From contig JAXHNR010000002.1 in assembly GCA_034520215.1 (NCBI GenBank), forward strand, positions 470,642 to 534,641: a DNA stretch of 64,000 bases, given 5' to 3'. The translations under genes were made by a program, and so were the position numbers. This document shows positions 14,434 through 62,674 of the stretch, in pieces; the first letter of the stretch is position 1, and each line of letters opens with the position of its first letter. Source of the DNA: Candidatus Krumholzibacteriota bacterium (GTDB lineage Bacteria > Krumholzibacteriota > Krumholzibacteriia > Krumholzibacteriales > WJIX01). The notes below the pieces were generated by a model. That model searched no databases. It was not told the origin of the DNA and saw nothing but the letters and a program-made list of their open reading frames with translations.

Positions 14434-14719
14434 TGGAGTTTCCCCAATTATTACATATAATTTGTATATCCGGCTATTGGCATTGTCAAAATCACTGTCG
14501 ATTTTCCCAGCGAGAAAATCGCAGTTCCCGCTCTCAGACTCGCTCTTTCCCATTTCCTTTGAAGGAAATGGGAAAACCATGCCCGCTCGTCTTCCGAGAG
14601 GGTTTTGCTATGCCAATAGCCGGATAAAAACTAAGTATCAATGCCATTTGTCACTACAGATAATCACCCTGTAACTTTGCCGTTACTAAAATATTCCTAT
14701 GATATTCGTGGAATGTCCA
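14434..14719. mobile_element. Dispersed inverted-repeat element, copy A (complete, subfamily alpha)
   Basis: A 286-bp non-coding element. The left end is TGGAGTTTCCCC (conserved end) and the right end a degraded GTGGAATGTCCA. It is flanked by a direct repeat, CTGTTATTT at 14424-14432 and 14721-14729, consistent with a target-site duplication. Inner inverted repeats of 17 bp lie at 14467-14483 and 14610-14626. The core contains hairpin I at 14499-14521 (8-bp stem, loop CCAGCGA), hairpin II at 14546-14575 (14-bp stem) and a small hairpin III near 14590-14600. Order from the conserved end: I-II-III. There is no coding capacity beyond short chance frames. Confidence 0.85.
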
Positions 14720-21905: not shown

Positions 21906-22796
21906 ATGAACGAATTCGTTGAGGCATTGAGCCAGTTTGCTCTGACCAGCGGTATAAGGATTGCCGCAATTGTGGCCGGGGCTTTTATTACGGTCAGAAT
22001 TTTCAAGATCATAATAAGAAGATTTTTATCAAAATATTCATCGAGCGCAAAGGTAGGTATCGAAAGAGCCAAAAGGGCTGAGACACTTTCCGGTTTAATA
22101 GAAACCACTCTGAAGGTAGTGATACTGATTACCGTTTTGCTTATGGTCCTGAAGGAAGTGGGGATAGATATAACTCCCCTTCTCGCCGGCGCTGGTATCG
22201 TGGGGCTGGCGGTTGGGTTCGGTGCTCAGAGTCTGGTGAAGGATATTATAAGCGGATTTTTTATGCTCCTGGAGAACCATTTGAATGTGGGAGATGTGGT
22301 TGAGATAGCGGGCAAAGCGGGATTGGTCGAGTCGATGAATCTGAGAATAACGGTGATGAGAGATTTCGAAGGTAAGGTCCATATAGTGCCGAATGGTGAA
22401 ATATCGGTTGTTACAAACTTCACCAAGGAATACTCGCGGGCACTGATAGAGATAGGTGTTGCCTATAAGGAGGATGTGGACAGAGTCATCGGTATCCTGA
22501 AGGAGGTCGGCGAAGAGATCAGGAAAGACGAGACTTACGGCCCCAAGATATTGGAACCGATGGAGGTAATAGGTCTGGACAGCTTCGGTTCATCGTCCAT
22601 TAATATCAAGGTAAGATTCAAGACGAAACCGATAGAGCAGTGGAGCACCTCCAGGGAATACCGCCGTCTGGTAAAGAAAAGATTCGACAAGGAAAATATC
22701 GAGATACCTTTCCCTCATGTAACGCTATATATGGGAGAGGGTGAAAATGACGGCGTTCTTAAAGTAGACGCGGAATCAAAAGAGATAAAACAATAG
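21906..22796 (+). CDS. mscS: Small-conductance mechanosensitive channel, MscS family
   Basis: 296 residues. N-terminal membrane helices are followed by the pore helix ITPLLAGAGIVGLAVGFGAQSLVKDIISGFFMLLENHLNVGDVVEI, the MscS hallmark with alternating Gly and Ala. The beta domain (VESMNLRITVMRDFEGKVHIVPNGEI) and the C-terminal alpha/beta domain complete the fold. It opens under membrane tension on osmotic downshift. AAGGAGGAG precedes the ATG by 6 bases. Size matches E. coli MscS (286 residues). Confidence 0.93.
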   Translation: MNEFVEALSQFALTSGIRIAAIVAGAFITVRIFKIIIRRFLSKYSSSAKVGIERAKRAETLSGLIETTLKVVILITVLLMVLKEVGIDITPLLAGAGIVGLAVGFGAQSLVKDIISGFFMLLENHLNVGDVVEIAGKAGLVESMNLRITVMRDFEGKVHIVPNGEISVVTNFTKEYSRALIEIGVAYKEDVDRVIGILKEVGEEIRKDETYGPKILEPMEVIGLDSFGSSSINIKVRFKTKPIEQWSTSREYRRLVKKRFDKENIEIPFPHVTLYMGEGENDGVLKVDAESKEIKQ

Positions 22797-22800
22797 AAGA

Positions 22801-22939
22801 CAGGCAAGGATTTCCGTCCCGAAGGGGCAGAAATCCTTGCCCGCTCGCCACTCGGCGAAAATTTTGAAAATATCAATCAGCCGCAAACTTCACGAATCAA
22901 TTAATCTCCTGATTGGTAATAAAGATTGGGGAAACTCCA
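22801..22939. mobile_element. Dispersed element, copy B (partial; conserved right end)
   Basis: The left arm and hairpin I are missing. What remains is a hairpin with a 12-bp stem (GGCAAGGATTTC paired with GAAATCCTTGCC, 22803-22841), hairpin III (CGCCACTCGGCG), the inner repeat TTTTGAAAATATCAATCAGCCGC, a right arm and the conserved end GGGGAAACTCCA at 22928-22939. Core order from the conserved end is III-II. The right arm is of the same type as copy F (51949-52021). The end lies 15 bases before the TTGACA of the feo promoter. Confidence 0.75.
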
Positions 22940-36649: not shown

Positions 36650-36870
36650 GCTGATGAGTGCGGATGATTGATATTTTCAAAATCGTGGTCGATTTCCCGC
36701 CGGCCGAGTAAATAGTACGCTCTACCAACTCGGGCTCGCTCTTTCTGCCCCTTCGGGTCAGAAATCCCTGCCCGCTCGCCACTCGGCGAGGGTTTTTAAA
36801 ATATCAATCATCCACATACTATTACAAATCATCGACTACCTTATAGGTTATAAAAATTGGGGAAACTCCA
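36650..36870. mobile_element. Dispersed element, copy C (left end lost)
   Basis: Subfamily beta. Starts within the left arm (gctgatgagtgcgg), keeps both inner repeats (ATTGATATTTTCAAAA and a slightly mutated partner TTTTTAAAATATCAAT), the core with a decayed hairpin I and hairpin III of type CGCC-ACTC-GGCG, and a full right arm ending GGGGAAACTCCA at 36859-36870. Order from the conserved end: III-II-I, as in copy D. It lies between the gdhA terminator and a PAS kinase gene. The distance to a weak TTATCT is 13 bases. Confidence 0.75.
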
Positions 36871-38333: not shown

Positions 38334-38388
38334 CTGAAAATTCGCCTGGGATTCTCATACTAAATATAGATTCATATTATCAAATTGC

Positions 38389-38692
38389 AGGAATTCCCCC
38401 AAAAATCCGGCAAGTATTTTACTAACATTTCGAGATACAATAAGTTATCAGGATTGGTAAGTGGAATAGGGTTTTCATTGCTGATGAGTGCGGATGATTG
38501 ATATTTTCAAAATCGTTGTCGGTTTCCCCGGCGAGGAAACCGCAACTCCCGCCTCGGGCTCGCTCTTTCTGCCCCTTCGGGCCAGAAATCCTTGCCCGCT
38601 CGCCCTCCGGAGGGTTTTGAAAATATCAATCATCCGCATACTATTATAAATCATCGACTACCTTATAGGTTATAAAAATTGGGGAAACTCTA
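38389..38692. mobile_element. Dispersed element, copy D (complete, subfamily beta)
   Basis: 304 bp. The left end AGGAATTCCCCC is degraded and the right end GGGGAAACTCTA conserved. Flanking direct repeats ATCAAATTG lie at 38379-38387 and 38694-38702. Inner inverted repeats are perfect over 24 bp (38489-38512 and 38615-38638). Hairpin I at 38520-38542 has a perfect 8-bp stem (CGGTTTCC/GGAAACCG, loop CCGGCGA), hairpin II follows near 38568-38590, and hairpin III is the palindrome CCCTCCGGAGGG. The arms match copy E in reverse, but the core is in the same orientation as in E. Confidence 0.85.
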
Positions 38693-38876
38693 CATCAAAT
38701 TGTGCTTGATACAGCCGGACCGTTTTGAATTTAAAGTATAAATTCAGGCAATAGTTTTTATTTCAGCTCCGGCCCGTCCGGAGGACAGTTCTCAGCATAT
38801 TCCGTATAGATTCGGAAGATCGGAATTTATCCCGTGGAGAATTTAAATTTCATTTAAGCCGGATCCATGTGCCGCT

Positions 38877-41824: not shown

Positions 41825-41848
41825 GGGGAAACTCCAGATATTATTTAT

Positions 41849-42154
41849 TGGAGTTTCCCCAATTTTTATAACCTATAAGGTAGTCGATGATTTGTAACAG
41901 TATGCGGCTGATTGATATTTTCAAAATCGTGGTCGATTTCCCCGGCGAGGTAATCGTACGCTCTGCGCCTCGGGCTCGCTCTTTCTGCCCCTTCGGGCCA
42001 GAAATCCTTGCCCGCTCGCCCTCCGGAGGGTTTTGAAAATATCAATCAGCCGCACTCATCAGCAATAAAAACCCTATTCCACTTATCAATTCTGATAAAT
42101 GGTTGTATCTCGAAATGTTTGTAAAATACTTGCCTGATTTTCGGGGGAACTCCA
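41849..42154. mobile_element. Dispersed element, copy E (complete, subfamily beta)
   Basis: 306 bp. Ends TGGAGTTTCCCC (41849-41860) and GGGGAACTCCA (to 42154) are inverted repeats. Exact 12-bp direct repeats GATATTATTTAT flank it at 41837-41848 and 42155-42166, the best target-site duplication of the family. Inner inverted repeats are perfect over 24 bp (41903-41926 and 42031-42054). Hairpin I lies at 41934-41956 (loop CCGGCGA, one mismatch) and hairpin III is CCCTCCGGAGGG. Order from the conserved left end: I-II-III. It separates the divergent msrAB and small membrane protein genes. Confidence 0.88.
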
Positions 42155-47683: not shown

Positions 47684-47865
47684 CTTAAAGGACTCTTGGT
47701 GAGCGCTGTCCTTAAGTATCGCAATAAAGGGGCTGAAAGTAGATTGAAACAATAATAATATAGGTGTATAAATTTATCAGGCGGTAAAGGTCAAGTAAAA
47801 GAGTGAAAAGAGAATGTTCTGCTGTTCGAGTACAGTCTTTTTTTCATAAATGGAAAGGCCGGTTG

Positions 47866-50800
47866 ATGGAAAGTAAAGATAGTTTTACGATCGAAGGAAA
47901 ATACGATATCTCCGATACGGTCAATATTGACCGTCTCGAAGATATTCTGAAGAGCTTTGCCCGGGCGAACGGGTATTCATGCGAGCTTTACTCAAACCCC
48001 GATTGCCAACTTCTGATCAGCACGGGTATGCCTGTTATATGCGGCGGCTTCCACCGGAAATATTCGGAATCCGGAGAAAAATGCAGAAAGAGCAATCTCA
48101 AACTGAATAAAAAAATCAAAAAGGGGAAGAAAGCTGTAATAAGCAGATGCGATAACGGTTTGATCAGAGGTCAAGCCCCGATAGTGATAAACGGGGTGTA
48201 TCTGGCAGATTTGATTATCGGCCCGGTTCTGTTTGAAAAACCGGAGCCGGAATGGTTCAGAAAACAGGCGAAAAATTACGGGTATGACTCGGAAAAATAC
48301 CTCGAGACGCTTGAAGAGGTTAAGGTTGTGAAAGAGGAAGATTTTCGCGAATCTCTATCTTTCCTGAGGGAGATAATTGTAATACTGGCAGAGCGGGGAT
48401 TGTCTGAAATCCAGAGTTCTCTGAAGGTACGGGAAGCGCAAGAGAGTAAGAATAATCTTTATACTACCCTCCGTTCGATCGGTGAGGCTGTTATTTCCAC
48501 CGACATGGAAGGGCGAATAGCACATATGAACCCTGTCTCGGAAAATCTGACAGGATGGAGTATAGAAGAGGCGAGAGGGAAGCAGCTCACGGAAGTTTTC
48601 CATATTGTTAATTCCAGGACAGAGGAAAAGGCGCCCAACCCGGTTGATAAAGTTCTTAAAGAAGGGGTGGTAGTGGGGCTGGCCAACCACACAAAATTAA
48701 TAGCCGGCGATGGCAAGGAGTTCCAGATAGCAGATTCTGCATCGCCGATAAGAGACGAGAACGGGAATATAACAGGAGTAGTTCTCGTATTCAGAGATGT
48801 TACGGATGAATATAAGAAAAGCCAGCAGCTTAAAGAAAACCTGGAGCTTCTCTCCGCCACTTTTCAAAGCATTCAGGATGGAGTGAGTGTTCTCGAAAGG
48901 GATCTGACCATAAGTTACGTTAACCCGGTTATGGAGAAGTGGTACGGGGCTAAAATGCCTCTGGTTGGAGGTAAGTGTTATTTCTGTTATCACGGCAGGG
49001 ATAATCCATGTGAACCGTGCCCTTCCCTGAGGTGCATGGAAACGGGAAAAAAGGAATTCGATATTGTCCCCGGGCCCCCGGAGCCCGATTCACCCGTTGA
49101 GTGGATTGAATTGTACAGTTATCCGATCATAGATGAGGAAACTGGAAAGGTGTCCGGAGTGGTAGAGTTTGTCCGAGATATTACCAAACAGAAGAGGACT
49201 CGGGATAATTTGAGCCGCAGCAAGAAGATACTTGCCAGAACAGAGCGCATCGCGAATGTCGGCAGCTGGGAATGGGATATTGCCGGGGACAGCGTTACCT
49301 GGTCAGATGAACTTTTCAGTATTTTCAATATTGATCCGGAAGAAGAACCGCCCAGCTGGAAGGAACATCCGTCTCTGTATCATCCGGACGATATGGAGCT
49401 GCTGAAACGCGCGGTTGAAAAAGCTGTATCGGAAGGTGTTCCCTATGAACTGGAGCTTCGAGCCCTTCCGAGAGGGGGCGGAACCAGGATTTGCCTGTCC
49501 CGCGGATTCCCCGACACGGATTCGGATGGCAATGTTTTTCGTCTTTACGGATCGTTTCAGGATATTACAGAGCTGAAGATAACCAAGCAGAAGCTGAGGA
49601 AAAGCCGGGATAACCTCGAAACCACTCTTAATTCCATAGGTGATGCTGTTATTTCCACCGACACGGAAGGGCGAATAGCGCATATGAACCCTGTAGCGGA
49701 AAATCTGACGGGATGGAGTATAGAAGAGGCGAGGGGTAAACAGCTCACGGAAGTTTTCCATATCGTTAATTCCAGGACAGAGGAAAAGGCGCCCAACCCG
49801 GTTGATAAGGTTCTTAAGGAGGGGGTGGTAGTGGGGCTGGCAAACCACACAAAATTAATAGCCGGCGACGGTAAGGAATACCAGATAGCCGACTCCGGGT
49901 CGCCCATCAGAAACACTGAAGGTGAAACTACGGGAGTGGTTCTCGTATTCAGAGATGTTACCGAAAAATACAGGATAAGGGAAGAGCTGCGCCGCAGCGA
50001 GGAGCTGTTAAGTCTTGCCATGTCAATAAAGAATGAAGGCATTTGGGACTGGGACTTAACCACCGATGATGTGTACTTCGATCCCCGGTACTACAAGATG
50101 GCTGGATACCGGGTGGATGAATTCCCCCCGCGCCTGGATGAGTTTAAAAAAAGGGTTCACCCTGATGATATAGAATATGTAATGAACCGGGCCAGTGAGC
50201 ATCTGGAAGGAAAGATAGACAACTTTAATGTGGAGTTCCGATTTAAGAGAAAGGATGGAGGCTGGATGTGGATTCAGGGGAGAGGCATGGTAGTTGAGCG
50301 GGATGAAAAAGGATCCCCAACCCGCTTCGTCGGAACCCATACTGATATAACGGAACGAAAATATGCCGAGGAGGCGCTCAAGGAGAGTGAAGAAAAGTAC
50401 AGAACCCTTGTTTCCTCGATGAGTGATATGATATTCCTGCTCGACTGTGATGATCGGTTTCAGGAAATACACTCTAAACCGGGTAATGTCCTTTTAGCGG
50501 AGCCGGAAGAATTTCTGGGAAAGAGGATTCAAGAGGTAATGCCATCTTCTATAATCGATATGTATGAGAAATCAGCTGAGGAAGTAAGAAGAAGCGGCGA
50601 AACGCGGAGATTCGAATACCCTCTCAGAATAGGGGACAGGGATATGTGGTTCCTGGCAACCTTGGATCTTCATAAAGACGAAGAGAGTGTGGTCGCCGAT
50701 ATACGCGATATAACCGAGCGTAAGGAGGCGCAGGAGGCACTTCAGAGGATGCAGAAGCTGGAGAGTGTAGGTACACTGGCAGGAGGAATAGCGCATGACT

Positions 50801-51870
50801 TCAACAATATACTTACCGGGGTATACGGCAATATCGAACTTGCCAGGCTGGAGCTGTCCGAGGATCATCAATCGTATAAGCATATTGAGACCGCCCATAA
50901 ATCGCTGGAGAGGGCCAGGCACCTGACCAAACAGCTTCTGACTTTTGCCAGGGGAGGAGAGCCGCTGCTGGAATCTGTTAATATTAAGGAGCTTGTGCGG
51001 GATTCGGTTCGATTCAACCTCAGCGGGAGCAGTATTGAAGCGAGTTTGAACCTGCCGGACGATCTGTGGATGGTTAAAGCGGACAGAGGACAGATGAGCC
51101 ACGTGTTGGCAAATCTTATTATTAACGCGAAGGAAGCGATGTCGATGGGCGGGGTTATTCACATAGAAGCGGAAAATGTTGAAGAAGCAGGAGGAGAATG
51201 CGCTTCCCGTTTATCAGGGGATTATGTCATGATTACCGTAAGGGATGAAGGTGTCGGAATTCCCGAAAAGTTTCTCGGGAGTGTGTTCGACCCCTATTTT
51301 ACCACAAAAAAGGCGGGAAGTGGCCTGGGACTGTCGATAGCTTACAGTATAATAAACAAACATGACGGGCATATCAGCGTTCAATCCGAACCGGGAAAGG
51401 GCGCTGCTTTTGCCCTGTTTCTCCCGGCCGAAAAGTCTTCCGAAATAGAGGGAAAAGAAGAAGCGGAGACAGACAGAAAACCCTCAAAAAATCTGGGGGA
51501 GGTGCTTCTGATGGATGACGAGAAGGCGGTGAGGGAGGTTTCAGCCAGGATGCTGAAAGCAATCGGGTATAATACCGATTTGGCTGTTAACGGGGAGGAA
51601 GCGCTCGAAAAGTATATCTCGGCATTGAAGAAAGGCAATCCATTTGACGTGGTTATCGCGGATCTGACAGTCCCCGGCGGAATGGGCGGCAAAGAACTGA
51701 GCGAAAAGATTCTCACGGCAGATCCGAACGCGAAAGTTATAGTTATAAGCGGTTATTCAACCGATCCGGTTATGGCCGGTTACACTGATTACGGGTTTGC
51801 GGGCCGAATCGTAAAGCCGTTCGAGATAAAAGATTTAAGGCGTGAGATTACGCGTGTAATAAAAGAGTGA
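47866..51870 (+). CDS. PocR-PAS hybrid histidine kinase
   Basis: 1334 residues, no membrane helix. Order: a PocR ligand-binding domain (14-170; ICGGFHRKYSESGEKCRKSN, VINGVYLADLIIGPVLF), then six PAS domains to about 955. HisKA (TLAGGIAHDFNNILTGVYGNIELA), HATPase (N box NLIINAKEAM, G1 DEGVGIPE, G2 GSGLGLSIAYSII) and a C-terminal REC (VLLMDDEK...VIADLTVPGGMGG) follow. The third PAS has a Cys cluster (CYFCYHGRDNPCEPCPSLRC). PAS 1 and PAS 4 are nearly identical. The ATG at 47866 follows GGAAAGG; a GTG at 47803 is in frame. PocR domains are thought to bind small hydrocarbon derivatives; the ligand here is unknown. Confidence 0.9.
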   Translation: MESKDSFTIEGKYDISDTVNIDRLEDILKSFARANGYSCELYSNPDCQLLISTGMPVICGGFHRKYSESGEKCRKSNLKLNKKIKKGKKAVISRCDNGLIRGQAPIVINGVYLADLIIGPVLFEKPEPEWFRKQAKNYGYDSEKYLETLEEVKVVKEEDFRESLSFLREIIVILAERGLSEIQSSLKVREAQESKNNLYTTLRSIGEAVISTDMEGRIAHMNPVSENLTGWSIEEARGKQLTEVFHIVNSRTEEKAPNPVDKVLKEGVVVGLANHTKLIAGDGKEFQIADSASPIRDENGNITGVVLVFRDVTDEYKKSQQLKENLELLSATFQSIQDGVSVLERDLTISYVNPVMEKWYGAKMPLVGGKCYFCYHGRDNPCEPCPSLRCMETGKKEFDIVPGPPEPDSPVEWIELYSYPIIDEETGKVSGVVEFVRDITKQKRTRDNLSRSKKILARTERIANVGSWEWDIAGDSVTWSDELFSIFNIDPEEEPPSWKEHPSLYHPDDMELLKRAVEKAVSEGVPYELELRALPRGGGTRICLSRGFPDTDSDGNVFRLYGSFQDITELKITKQKLRKSRDNLETTLNSIGDAVISTDTEGRIAHMNPVAENLTGWSIEEARGKQLTEVFHIVNSRTEEKAPNPVDKVLKEGVVVGLANHTKLIAGDGKEYQIADSGSPIRNTEGETTGVVLVFRDVTEKYRIREELRRSEELLSLAMSIKNEGIWDWDLTTDDVYFDPRYYKMAGYRVDEFPPRLDEFKKRVHPDDIEYVMNRASEHLEGKIDNFNVEFRFKRKDGGWMWIQGRGMVVERDEKGSPTRFVGTHTDITERKYAEEALKESEEKYRTLVSSMSDMIFLLDCDDRFQEIHSKPGNVLLAEPEEFLGKRIQEVMPSSIIDMYEKSAEEVRRSGETRRFEYPLRIGDRDMWFLATLDLHKDEESVVADIRDITERKEAQEALQRMQKLESVGTLAGGIAHDFNNILTGVYGNIELARLELSEDHQSYKHIETAHKSLERARHLTKQLLTFARGGEPLLESVNIKELVRDSVRFNLSGSSIEASLNLPDDLWMVKADRGQMSHVLANLIINAKEAMSMGGVIHIEAENVEEAGGECASRLSGDYVMITVRDEGVGIPEKFLGSVFDPYFTTKKAGSGLGLSIAYSIINKHDGHISVQSEPGKGAAFALFLPAEKSSEIEGKEEAETDRKPSKNLGEVLLMDDEKAVREVSARMLKAIGYNTDLAVNGEEALEKYISALKKGNPFDVVIADLTVPGGMGGKELSEKILTADPNAKVIVISGYSTDPVMAGYTDYGFAGRIVKPFEIKDLRREITRVIKE
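48487..48803 (+). repeat. PAS-coding direct repeat, first copy
   Basis: About 317 bases that recur 1158 bases downstream (49645-49961) without gaps and with high identity. It encodes the first PAS domain of the hybrid kinase. The middle (EARGKQLTEVFHIVNSRTEE onward) is identical in protein for about 65 residues. Confidence 0.85.
49645..49961 (+). repeat. PAS-coding direct repeat, second copy
   Basis: Second copy of the 317-base segment, encoding the fourth PAS domain of the same protein. Differences lie mostly near the two ends, and many are silent. A recent internal duplication or gene conversion explains this better than old paralogy, because the other PAS domains of the protein are highly diverged. 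Confidence 0.85.
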
Positions 51871-51948
51871 TCGAATGCAGGAATGCGGGGGGCAACAGGA
51901 ACAGGAAGAATAAGTGTCACCTTCCCTGTTTTAATCTTTTCCGAAGGT

Positions 51949-52021
51949 GATAATATTAATCAGCCGCGAACTTCAAGAATTAATTAATCTCCTGATTTGT
52001 AATAAAAATTGGAAAACTCCA
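51949..52021. mobile_element. Dispersed element, copy F (right arm only)
   Basis: Starts in an inner-repeat remnant (AATATTAATCAGCCGC), followed by an arm (AACTTCAAGAATTAATTAATCTCCTG) nearly identical to that of copy B, and ends TTGGAAAACTCCA at 52009-52021. Core and other arm are lost. TTGACA lies 14 bases further on, inside an inverted repeat CTTGA-CAA-TCAAG (52035-52047); I see no good -10 for it. Confidence 0.65.
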
Positions 52022-61504: not shown

Positions 61505-62296
61505 CTATCTCATAAGAACAAGTTTTCTGGTGATAACCTTTTTGCCGGCTGCCAGCCTGTAATAATAGACGCCGGAGCTGACAGGTTTTCCGCGGAAATT
61601 CCTGCCATTCCATTCTGTCCTGTATCTGTCTGCCGGTTTAATTTCGTCAATTAGAGTATTTATTTTTCTTCCCCTGACATCGAAGATGTCAAGTGTGACG
61701 CGTCTCTTGTCCGGAATAAAAAACTTGATCGTAGTCGACGGGTTGAATGGATTCGGAAAGTTCTGATAGAGTGTGACCGGTTTTGGCGGAAGTGTCAGTT
61801 CAAATGTCGTAGAGCGTACTACTTCACTCTTTTCTTTAACCGCGCTTATGTAATATCTGTAGCTTCTCCCCGGAATTGCGGACTGATCGCTGTATTCAAC
61901 CGTAGGCTCGGCTTCGATTATGCTTTCGTTGATGCGCGTAAAATTCGCGTCATCCCCCTCAGCGCGGTATATATCGTATCCGTCAAACGGCGCGCCGGAT
62001 TTTACCGTCCAGTTGAGAAGTACGGCGTCATTGATGAATTCACCCTTAAATGAGACTATTGCCACGTCAACGGCTGATTCAAGGTCCGCTATATACCAGA
62101 AGCCCAGCTGGACGTTGTGGGAGCTTCCGCTGAGCCTGTCGGCTGCGGCCTGCCCCGCGGTATCGTAAATAATATTTGTTCCGCTTCTTACCGTCCCTCC
62201 GCAGTTAAGTGTCCCGTGCGGTATCAGATATTGAGTATTCGCCCGCGCGGGAAACAGCAGCAGAGGAATGAGAAGCAGCAGTATAACACTTTTCAT
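61505..62296 (-). CDS. Secreted protein with FlgD-type C-terminal sorting domain
   Basis: 263 residues. Signal peptide MKSVILLLLIPLLLFPARA, a short beta region, a fibronectin-III-like domain (VSFKGEFINDAVLLNWTVKSGAPFDGYDIYR...YRYYISAV, about 80-170) and an FlgD-Ig-like end (LYQNFPNPFNPSTTIKFFIP...SSGVYYYRLAAGKKVITRKLVLMR). The same end occurs on the subtilase at 55079. It lies 55 bases upstream of the fibre-like gene on the same strand, so both may be one operon. The ATG follows AAGGAGGCGGGCAG. Confidence 0.85.
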   Translation of the reverse strand: MKSVILLLLIPLLLFPARANTQYLIPHGTLNCGGTVRSGTNIIYDTAGQAAADRLSGSSHNVQLGFWYIADLESAVDVAIVSFKGEFINDAVLLNWTVKSGAPFDGYDIYRAEGDDANFTRINESIIEAEPTVEYSDQSAIPGRSYRYYISAVKEKSEVVRSTTFELTLPPKPVTLYQNFPNPFNPSTTIKFFIPDKRRVTLDIFDVRGRKINTLIDEIKPADRYRTEWNGRNFRGKPVSSGVYYYRLAAGKKVITRKLVLMR

Positions 62297-62393: not shown

Positions 62394-62674
62394 TGGAGTT
62401 TCCCCAATTTTTTACATTCCTTTGTATATCCGGCTATTGTTATTTCAAAACCCTCTCGGAAGACGAGCGGGCATGGTTTTCCCATTTCCCTTAGGGAAAT
62501 GGGAAAGAGCGAGTCTGAGAGCGGGAGACGCTATTTCCTCGCAGGGGAAATAGACGGCGTTTTTGACAATACCAATAGCCGGATAGAAACTAAATATCAA
62601 TTCCACTTATCAATATGGGTAATTACTTGATAGTTATGTTACTAAAATATTGCCCTGATTTCGAGGAATGTCCT
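62394..62674. mobile_element. Dispersed element, copy G (complete, subfamily alpha)
   Basis: 281 bp. Left end TGGAGTTTCCCC conserved, right end GAGGAATGTCCT degraded. Flanking direct repeats TAATTTGTTT are exact at 62384-62393 and 62676-62685. The arms match copy A in the same orientation (TATATCCGGCTATTG...CAATAGCCGGATA). The core is the reverse complement of A's core: hairpin III first, hairpin II at 62478-62506, hairpin I at 62531-62553 (CTATTTCC/GGAAATAG). The right flanking repeat overlaps the stop codon of arfB. Confidence 0.87.

Follow-up and report, generated by a model that had tools for sequence, protein, structure and literature searches.

A folded core with covarying helices in a high-copy MITE of a Krumholzibacteriota bacterium, at a near-constant distance from predicted promoters

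The hairpin at positions 38520-38542 of the 64-kb stretch analysed here (the window) is part of the folded core of a high-copy non-autonomous transposon, a MITE. The helices of this core, a three-way junction, keep pairing while their sequence changes. The elements have terminal inverted repeats and target duplications of about 10 bp, IS4-like remnants and relatives have matching ends, and the distance to a predicted -35 box is nearly constant. Our preferred explanation, to which we assign a probability of roughly 0.6, is a MITE with a folded core that an IS4-family transposase moves in trans and that inserts preferentially at promoters; the core may, with less confidence, act as an RNA hairpin.

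The element and its copies

The focal copy is complete. Its features are as follows.

38379-38387, plus strand: target duplication, left copy, ATCAAATTG
38388-38692, plus strand: complete MITE of family A, 305 bp, left end CAGGAATTCCCCC, right end GGGGAAACTCTA
38489-38512, plus strand: outer stem P1, left arm, TGCGGATGATTGATATTTTCAAAA
38507-38620, plus strand: focal core, three-way junction (covariance model R1, 134.7 bits)
38515-38546, plus strand: hairpin I including the basal 4 bp GTTG/CAAC
38520-38542, plus strand: hairpin I, CGGTTTCC-CCGGCGA-GGAAACCG, 8-7-8
38552-38613, plus strand: arm II, with CCTC/GAGG, GGC/GCC, the TC.TC loop, GC/GC and hairpin II (38566-38588)
38615-38638, plus strand: outer stem P1, right arm, TTTTGAAAATATCAATCATCCGCA
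38694-38702, plus strand: target duplication, right copy, ATCAAATTG
38706-38711, plus strand: weak -35-like box TTGATA, 13 nt past the right end

The span around the focal core, 38483-38650, has a fold z-score of -8.9. Hairpin I and the three other copies listed in the initial annotation were read directly from the letters and are present as described there. Searched with the covariance model, the window contains five full cores and a half copy, six in all; the copy at 36677, absent from the earlier list, has a 3-nt insertion in its hairpin I. The other copies in the window are given below.

14486-14608, plus strand: family B core, opposite in orientation to that of most B copies; right end of the element at about 14436
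14499-14521: hairpin I, CGATTTTC-CCAGCGA-GAAAATCG
22776-22867, plus strand: truncated copy with part of its core; its right end is at about 22938 and TTGACA lies 15 nt beyond it
36677-36798, plus strand: family A core of a copy without a left end; right end at 36869
41921-42036, plus strand: family A core, inverted relative to that of 38388-38692; the copy is complete (about 41848-42152)
41934-41956: hairpin I, CGATTTCC...GGTAATCG, one mismatch
51948-52021, plus strand: core-less remnant of a right arm, with TTGACA after it
62445-62566, minus strand: family B core, in a complete copy
62531-62553, minus strand: hairpin I, CTATTTCC-CCTGCGA-GGAAATAG

No Rfam family matches the core above its gathering cut-off, and the only match in the window is a tRNA. 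Atu_C7 was rejected as an identity of the core, as it scores 22.6 bits with a cut-off of 45 and has a different fold. The window also contains a 300-nt direct repeat (48452-48751 and 49610-49909, 88% identical) within one sensor-kinase gene (47803-51870) that has several PAS domains; this is probably a duplicated PAS region. A protein with a Por_Secre_tail domain (type IX secretion sorting) is encoded at 61505-62296.

The genome is 2.6 Mb in two contigs and 97% complete. Cores occupy 73 distinct places in it and further element ends add seven, so that there are 80 or more copies, some of them truncated; this is a lower bound, the copies having been gathered by searches and from stretches of the genome. 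The elements holding cores are 279-314 bp long and have ends like TTGGAGTTTCCCC / GGGGAAACTCCAA. In 43 of the 58 complete elements 8-13 bp (mode 10) are common to both ends, compared with a mean of 1.1 and a maximum of 4 in shuffled pairings. Thus the elements have the terminal inverted repeats and target duplications of a non-autonomous DDE element, and they share about 13 terminal bp with an autonomous one, seen both as IS remnants and as an intact IS.

Three families, A, B and C, have a common core and unrelated outer stems. In both A and B some cores point one way relative to the arms and some the other. Genomes of the same genus contain relatives of about 130 bp that lack the core and have spread, and one of 124 bp is found in this genome; the core is therefore not needed for transposition. 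Like the bacterial MITEs derived from insertion sequences, the element is short, has no ORF, is flanked by terminal inverted repeats and target duplications, and occurs in many intergenic copies. Unlike them, it has a multi-helix core with paired changes, found in both orientations, an outer stem of arbitrary sequence, and a promoter offset. Two copies about 2 kb apart (C1:579293-579451 and C1:581450-581660) have near-identical flanks (CACGGAATATTGTTGACG) behind them, which points to duplication of a small segment along with its element end.

Paired changes in the core

Support is best for a three-way junction, made up of the outer stem P1, which may have any sequence, hairpin I (8 bp and 4 basal bp), and arm II. 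The latter consists of CCTC/GAGG, G[GA]C/G[CT]C, a conserved TC.TC loop, GC/GC and hairpin II. An earlier structure of the core, with CGGGC/GCCCG, was dropped in favour of arm II once families B and C were compared. On the minus strand the TC.TC loop reads GA.GA, where tandem G.A pairs could form.

We aligned 39 distinct cores from this genome with MAFFT and scored them against a named structure. Pairing is retained in 93.7% of cells, compared with 86.5% in shuffles, and in about 99% of cells in the lower helices of arm II. Changes on both sides are seen in 13 pairs; they involve 107 cells, against 38 in the shuffles, which ignore relatedness, and no shuffle out of 500 was as high. When the partner columns are slid by 1-3 positions pairing falls to 33-57%, a control that partly favours the structure, as it was picked after viewing these same sequences. 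The paired stem changes thus hold up in this larger set.

Hairpin I alleles with matching arms are CGGTTTCC, CGATTTCC, CAATTCCC, CTATTTCC and CGATTTTC. The basal 4 bp also vary in pairs: GTTG/CAAC, GTGG/CCAC, GCGG/CCGC, ACTG/CAGT and GCTG/CAGC. A genome from a second genus (G004) contributes a new paired allele of hairpin I, TGATTTGC/GCAAATCT, and another of hairpin II, TTCTTGATTTCC/GGAAATCAAGAA. At the same time, blocks of allele sequence have been exchanged between copies, and some recombinants have broken pairs, such as GATTTC/GAAACC, hairpin II CCCCATTTCC/GGAAATCAAG and the common GTAATC allele. Given this shuffling and the broken stems, single copies are not tightly constrained.

The initial annotation had read the paired changes as selection for a structure in RNA or single-stranded DNA. 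Paired changes across two genera support such a conserved fold. Block exchange of a few alleles, named there as the observation that would count against selection, does occur in part, but selection for structure stays viable in view of the new paired alleles seen in the second genus.

A real rival, and the main one to an RNA role of the core, is that the paired changes are unselected and result from template-switch correction of imperfect DNA hairpins, together with recombination of a few alleles among MITE copies. We give it a minor but appreciable chance. The block mosaic of the alleles agrees with it; moreover, the arms within one copy are more alike than between copies (0.81 and 1.26 mismatches, respectively), and an A/C change in P1 is present on both arms or on neither. 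However, mismatched alleles such as GTAATC persist in many copies, and such correction would thus be inefficient. It also has to account for some ten paired changes that arose separately in the two genera, and for loops and junction sequence that are conserved.

The core outside this genome

A pattern scan of GTDB genomes gave a single match, MAG WJIX01 Bin_043, which is the genome of the second genus mentioned above. Among 80 genomes of the phylum the core was found only in that genome and the present one, apart from a weak match in a third (G025), around which no element was found. No core was found in plasmids, phages or viral contigs.

Several cores of the second genus lie outside MITEs. 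One (L103) is located between convergent genes in a 17-bp unique palindrome, and a second in a different unique stem; neither has MITE ends. Another (L100) follows a terminator-like hairpin near the 3' end of a gene, and a decayed one (L128) lies downstream of a gene end.

These copies bring up the possibility that the core is a module independent of the MITEs, which spreads by means of its own, entering palindromes or building them from the local sequence, and which MITEs captured several times. The two cores in unique stems argue for it, as do the shared core of three families (A, B and C) whose outer stems are unrelated and the lack of the palindrome in core-less relatives. However, the non-MITE copies are few and no enzyme has been identified. 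There is also no usable empty site for L103, as the orthologous junctions are too diverged to show whether the palindrome was there beforehand. IS110 genes are present and have no similarity to the core, and a bridge-RNA origin of the core was rejected on these grounds. We consider an independent module unlikely.

Candidate partner transposase

Returning to mobilisation in trans, a transposase remnant at C2:36414-36761 of this genome runs into TTGGACATTCCCC. The same transposase is intact in two other genomes, G003 (a 427-aa frame) and G010 (454); in G016 a contig edge contains 402 aa of this protein. The two intact insertion sequences are 1429 and 1430 bp long and have a single ORF and ends matching those of the MITEs, with which they have little in common beyond the terminal 13 bp or so. 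This genome also has remnants of a second lineage (L201), about 100 bp away from a right end that matches the MITE exactly. An IS3-type transposase frame adjoins a decayed IS4-like remnant at C2:35136-38261 (L119/L196), as if inserted into it. Three right ends without cores (L088, L089, L090), with CCCCTTAGAAAAATGGGGAAACTCCAA or a close sequence, are perhaps remnants of a second IS lineage; TTGACA follows 12-15 nt beyond two of them.

The IS4 family is defined by the DDE spacing D(60-110)D(100-150)E and the YREK motif (PMC2266710). The transposase matches PF01609 above the cut-off. Residues D102, D189 and E313 of P0001, as read from motifs, give D-87-D-124-E, and the Y(2)R(3)E(6)K motif is complete, YLSRWLIEETIRFIK at 306. 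NCBIfam IS4 equivalog cut-offs are not reached (at best 39-48 bits, with cut-offs of 115-250), which suggests a divergent group. In comparison with the family as surveyed (PMC2266710), possibly near subgroup IS4Sa, the similarities are the DDE spacers, YREK, the single ORF, the size of about 1.43 kb, duplications of about 10 bp (on the MITEs) and CA-type ends on one side. The differences are the equivalog scores and the fixed promoter offset, which is absent from the survey of De Palmenaer et al. 2008 (PMC2266710), where the word 'promoter' does not occur.

Thus, judging from its sequence, the candidate partner is an IS4-family enzyme by its DDE spacing and YREK motif; it stays below the equivalog cut-offs, and no target duplication was seen at the two intact copies, whereas the MITEs do have duplications of about 10 bp. 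The ends, the duplication length and the target offset together suggest that an IS4-type enzyme moves the MITEs.

Insertion near predicted promoters

A TTGA, the predicted -35 box, lies 12-16 nt from the right end in 52 of 85 right flanks, compared with 1-4 per control window; exact TTGAC is found there in 32 of the 85, against 0-1 in equally wide control windows. Hexamers like TATAAT are most frequent at 36-37, which is where a -10 box would match, and this includes flanks without TTGA. The promoters are predicted by consensus, and these statistics treat copies as independent insertions, while a few are local duplicates. The box is rarer in left flanks (15/58). Among 46 scorable copies it is found at the right end in 22, at the left in eight, at both in two and at neither in 14. 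By simple ORF calls, 68 of 88 right ends face the start of an ORF and 18 the end of one. The same offset was found in G001-G004, and the two intact insertion sequences have it as well, at their transposase-3' ends. Given the near-constant distance, the target duplication would span roughly -49 to -40.

The focal copy is a poor example, as its box is weak and the next gene, encoding an AbgT-family transporter, is convergent. Six copies in this genome (L075, L077, L084, L093, L095, L097) are variously truncated on the left, and all keep the right end beside a -35-like box. At one copy of the second genus (L115) the box is farther than usual from the right end.

The eukaryotic elements Ty3 and Tf1 also insert upstream of transcription starts at a defined distance, as this element does with respect to predicted promoters. 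However, they are LTR retrotransposons guided by transcription factors, whereas the candidate enzyme here is a bacterial DDE transposase without a known tethering factor. In the open-licence literature, where absence is weak evidence, no relevant report of promoter-targeting bacterial transposons was found, and no precedent for a promoter offset together with a covarying junction core.

The offset could instead reflect selection, if the right end GGGGAAACTCCA served as a site for a regulator, at about -57, and copies placed otherwise were lost. Lone right ends do persist beside promoters, both in relatives and in truncated copies. On the other hand, intact insertion sequences in other genomes end differently, in GGGGAATGTCCA, and yet share the offset; the eight copies counted above have the promoter at their left end; and near-identical copies with target duplications look recent. 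Selection is, in our opinion, an improbable source of the offset, and insertion preference remains the favoured explanation.

Proposed mechanism and role of the core

The initial annotation had likened the hairpins to substrates of Y1/RAYT transposases and integron recombinases, a reading that fits the conserved loop and variable stems but is largely refuted and now very improbable: Y1_Tnp (PF01797) has no match in this genome or in that of the second genus (82% complete, hence weaker there), the mode of movement is DDE-like, with duplications of about 10 bp and IS4-family ends, core-less elements have spread too, and, as regards integrons, single dispersed copies with target duplications speak against them. 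REP/BIME palindromes are similarly dispersed extragenic hairpins, some of them near gene 3' ends, but here no Y1 transposase was found, the core is a long three-way junction and there are target duplications.

The mechanism that we propose is as follows. Firstly, the IS4-family transposase would act in trans on the MITE ends. Secondly, the transposition complex may prefer a promoter as its target, perhaps with polymerase bound. The element would then land about 13 bp upstream of the -35 box and leave the promoter intact. Finally, and with less confidence, the core may fold when transcribed from upstream genes, and its RNA hairpin may serve as a 3' end or as an insulator between the upstream transcript and the promoter. 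Core-less relatives that spread too and the frequency of broken-stem alleles count against this explanation.

An insulating or 3'-end RNA hairpin is, tentatively, the likeliest single role of the core. The conserved helices and the cores of the second genus near gene 3' ends are in its favour. Among one-sided changes on the plus strand, G.U is seen in 40 cells and A.C in 10 (10 and 6 pair types, respectively), which is not decisive. However, in 48 of 49 cores the more stable fold is that of the minus strand, which runs counter to the G.U lean of the plus strand, the orientation of the core to the promoter is not fixed, and there is no long U-run. We consider it unlikely that IS4-type transposition, docking at a fixed offset on promoters and possibly on bound RNA polymerase, carries a self-contained junction module able to move among elements and gene ends through palindromes that it enters or makes.

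In the open-licence papers searched we found no prior report of a bacterial DDE element inserting just upstream of transcription starts at one fixed distance. Should docking on polymerase or sigma underlie the offset, the family would be a ready test case and possibly a tool for tagging promoters. The covarying core, in turn, poses a bounded question: whether it is RNA, cruciform DNA or a product of hairpin correction.
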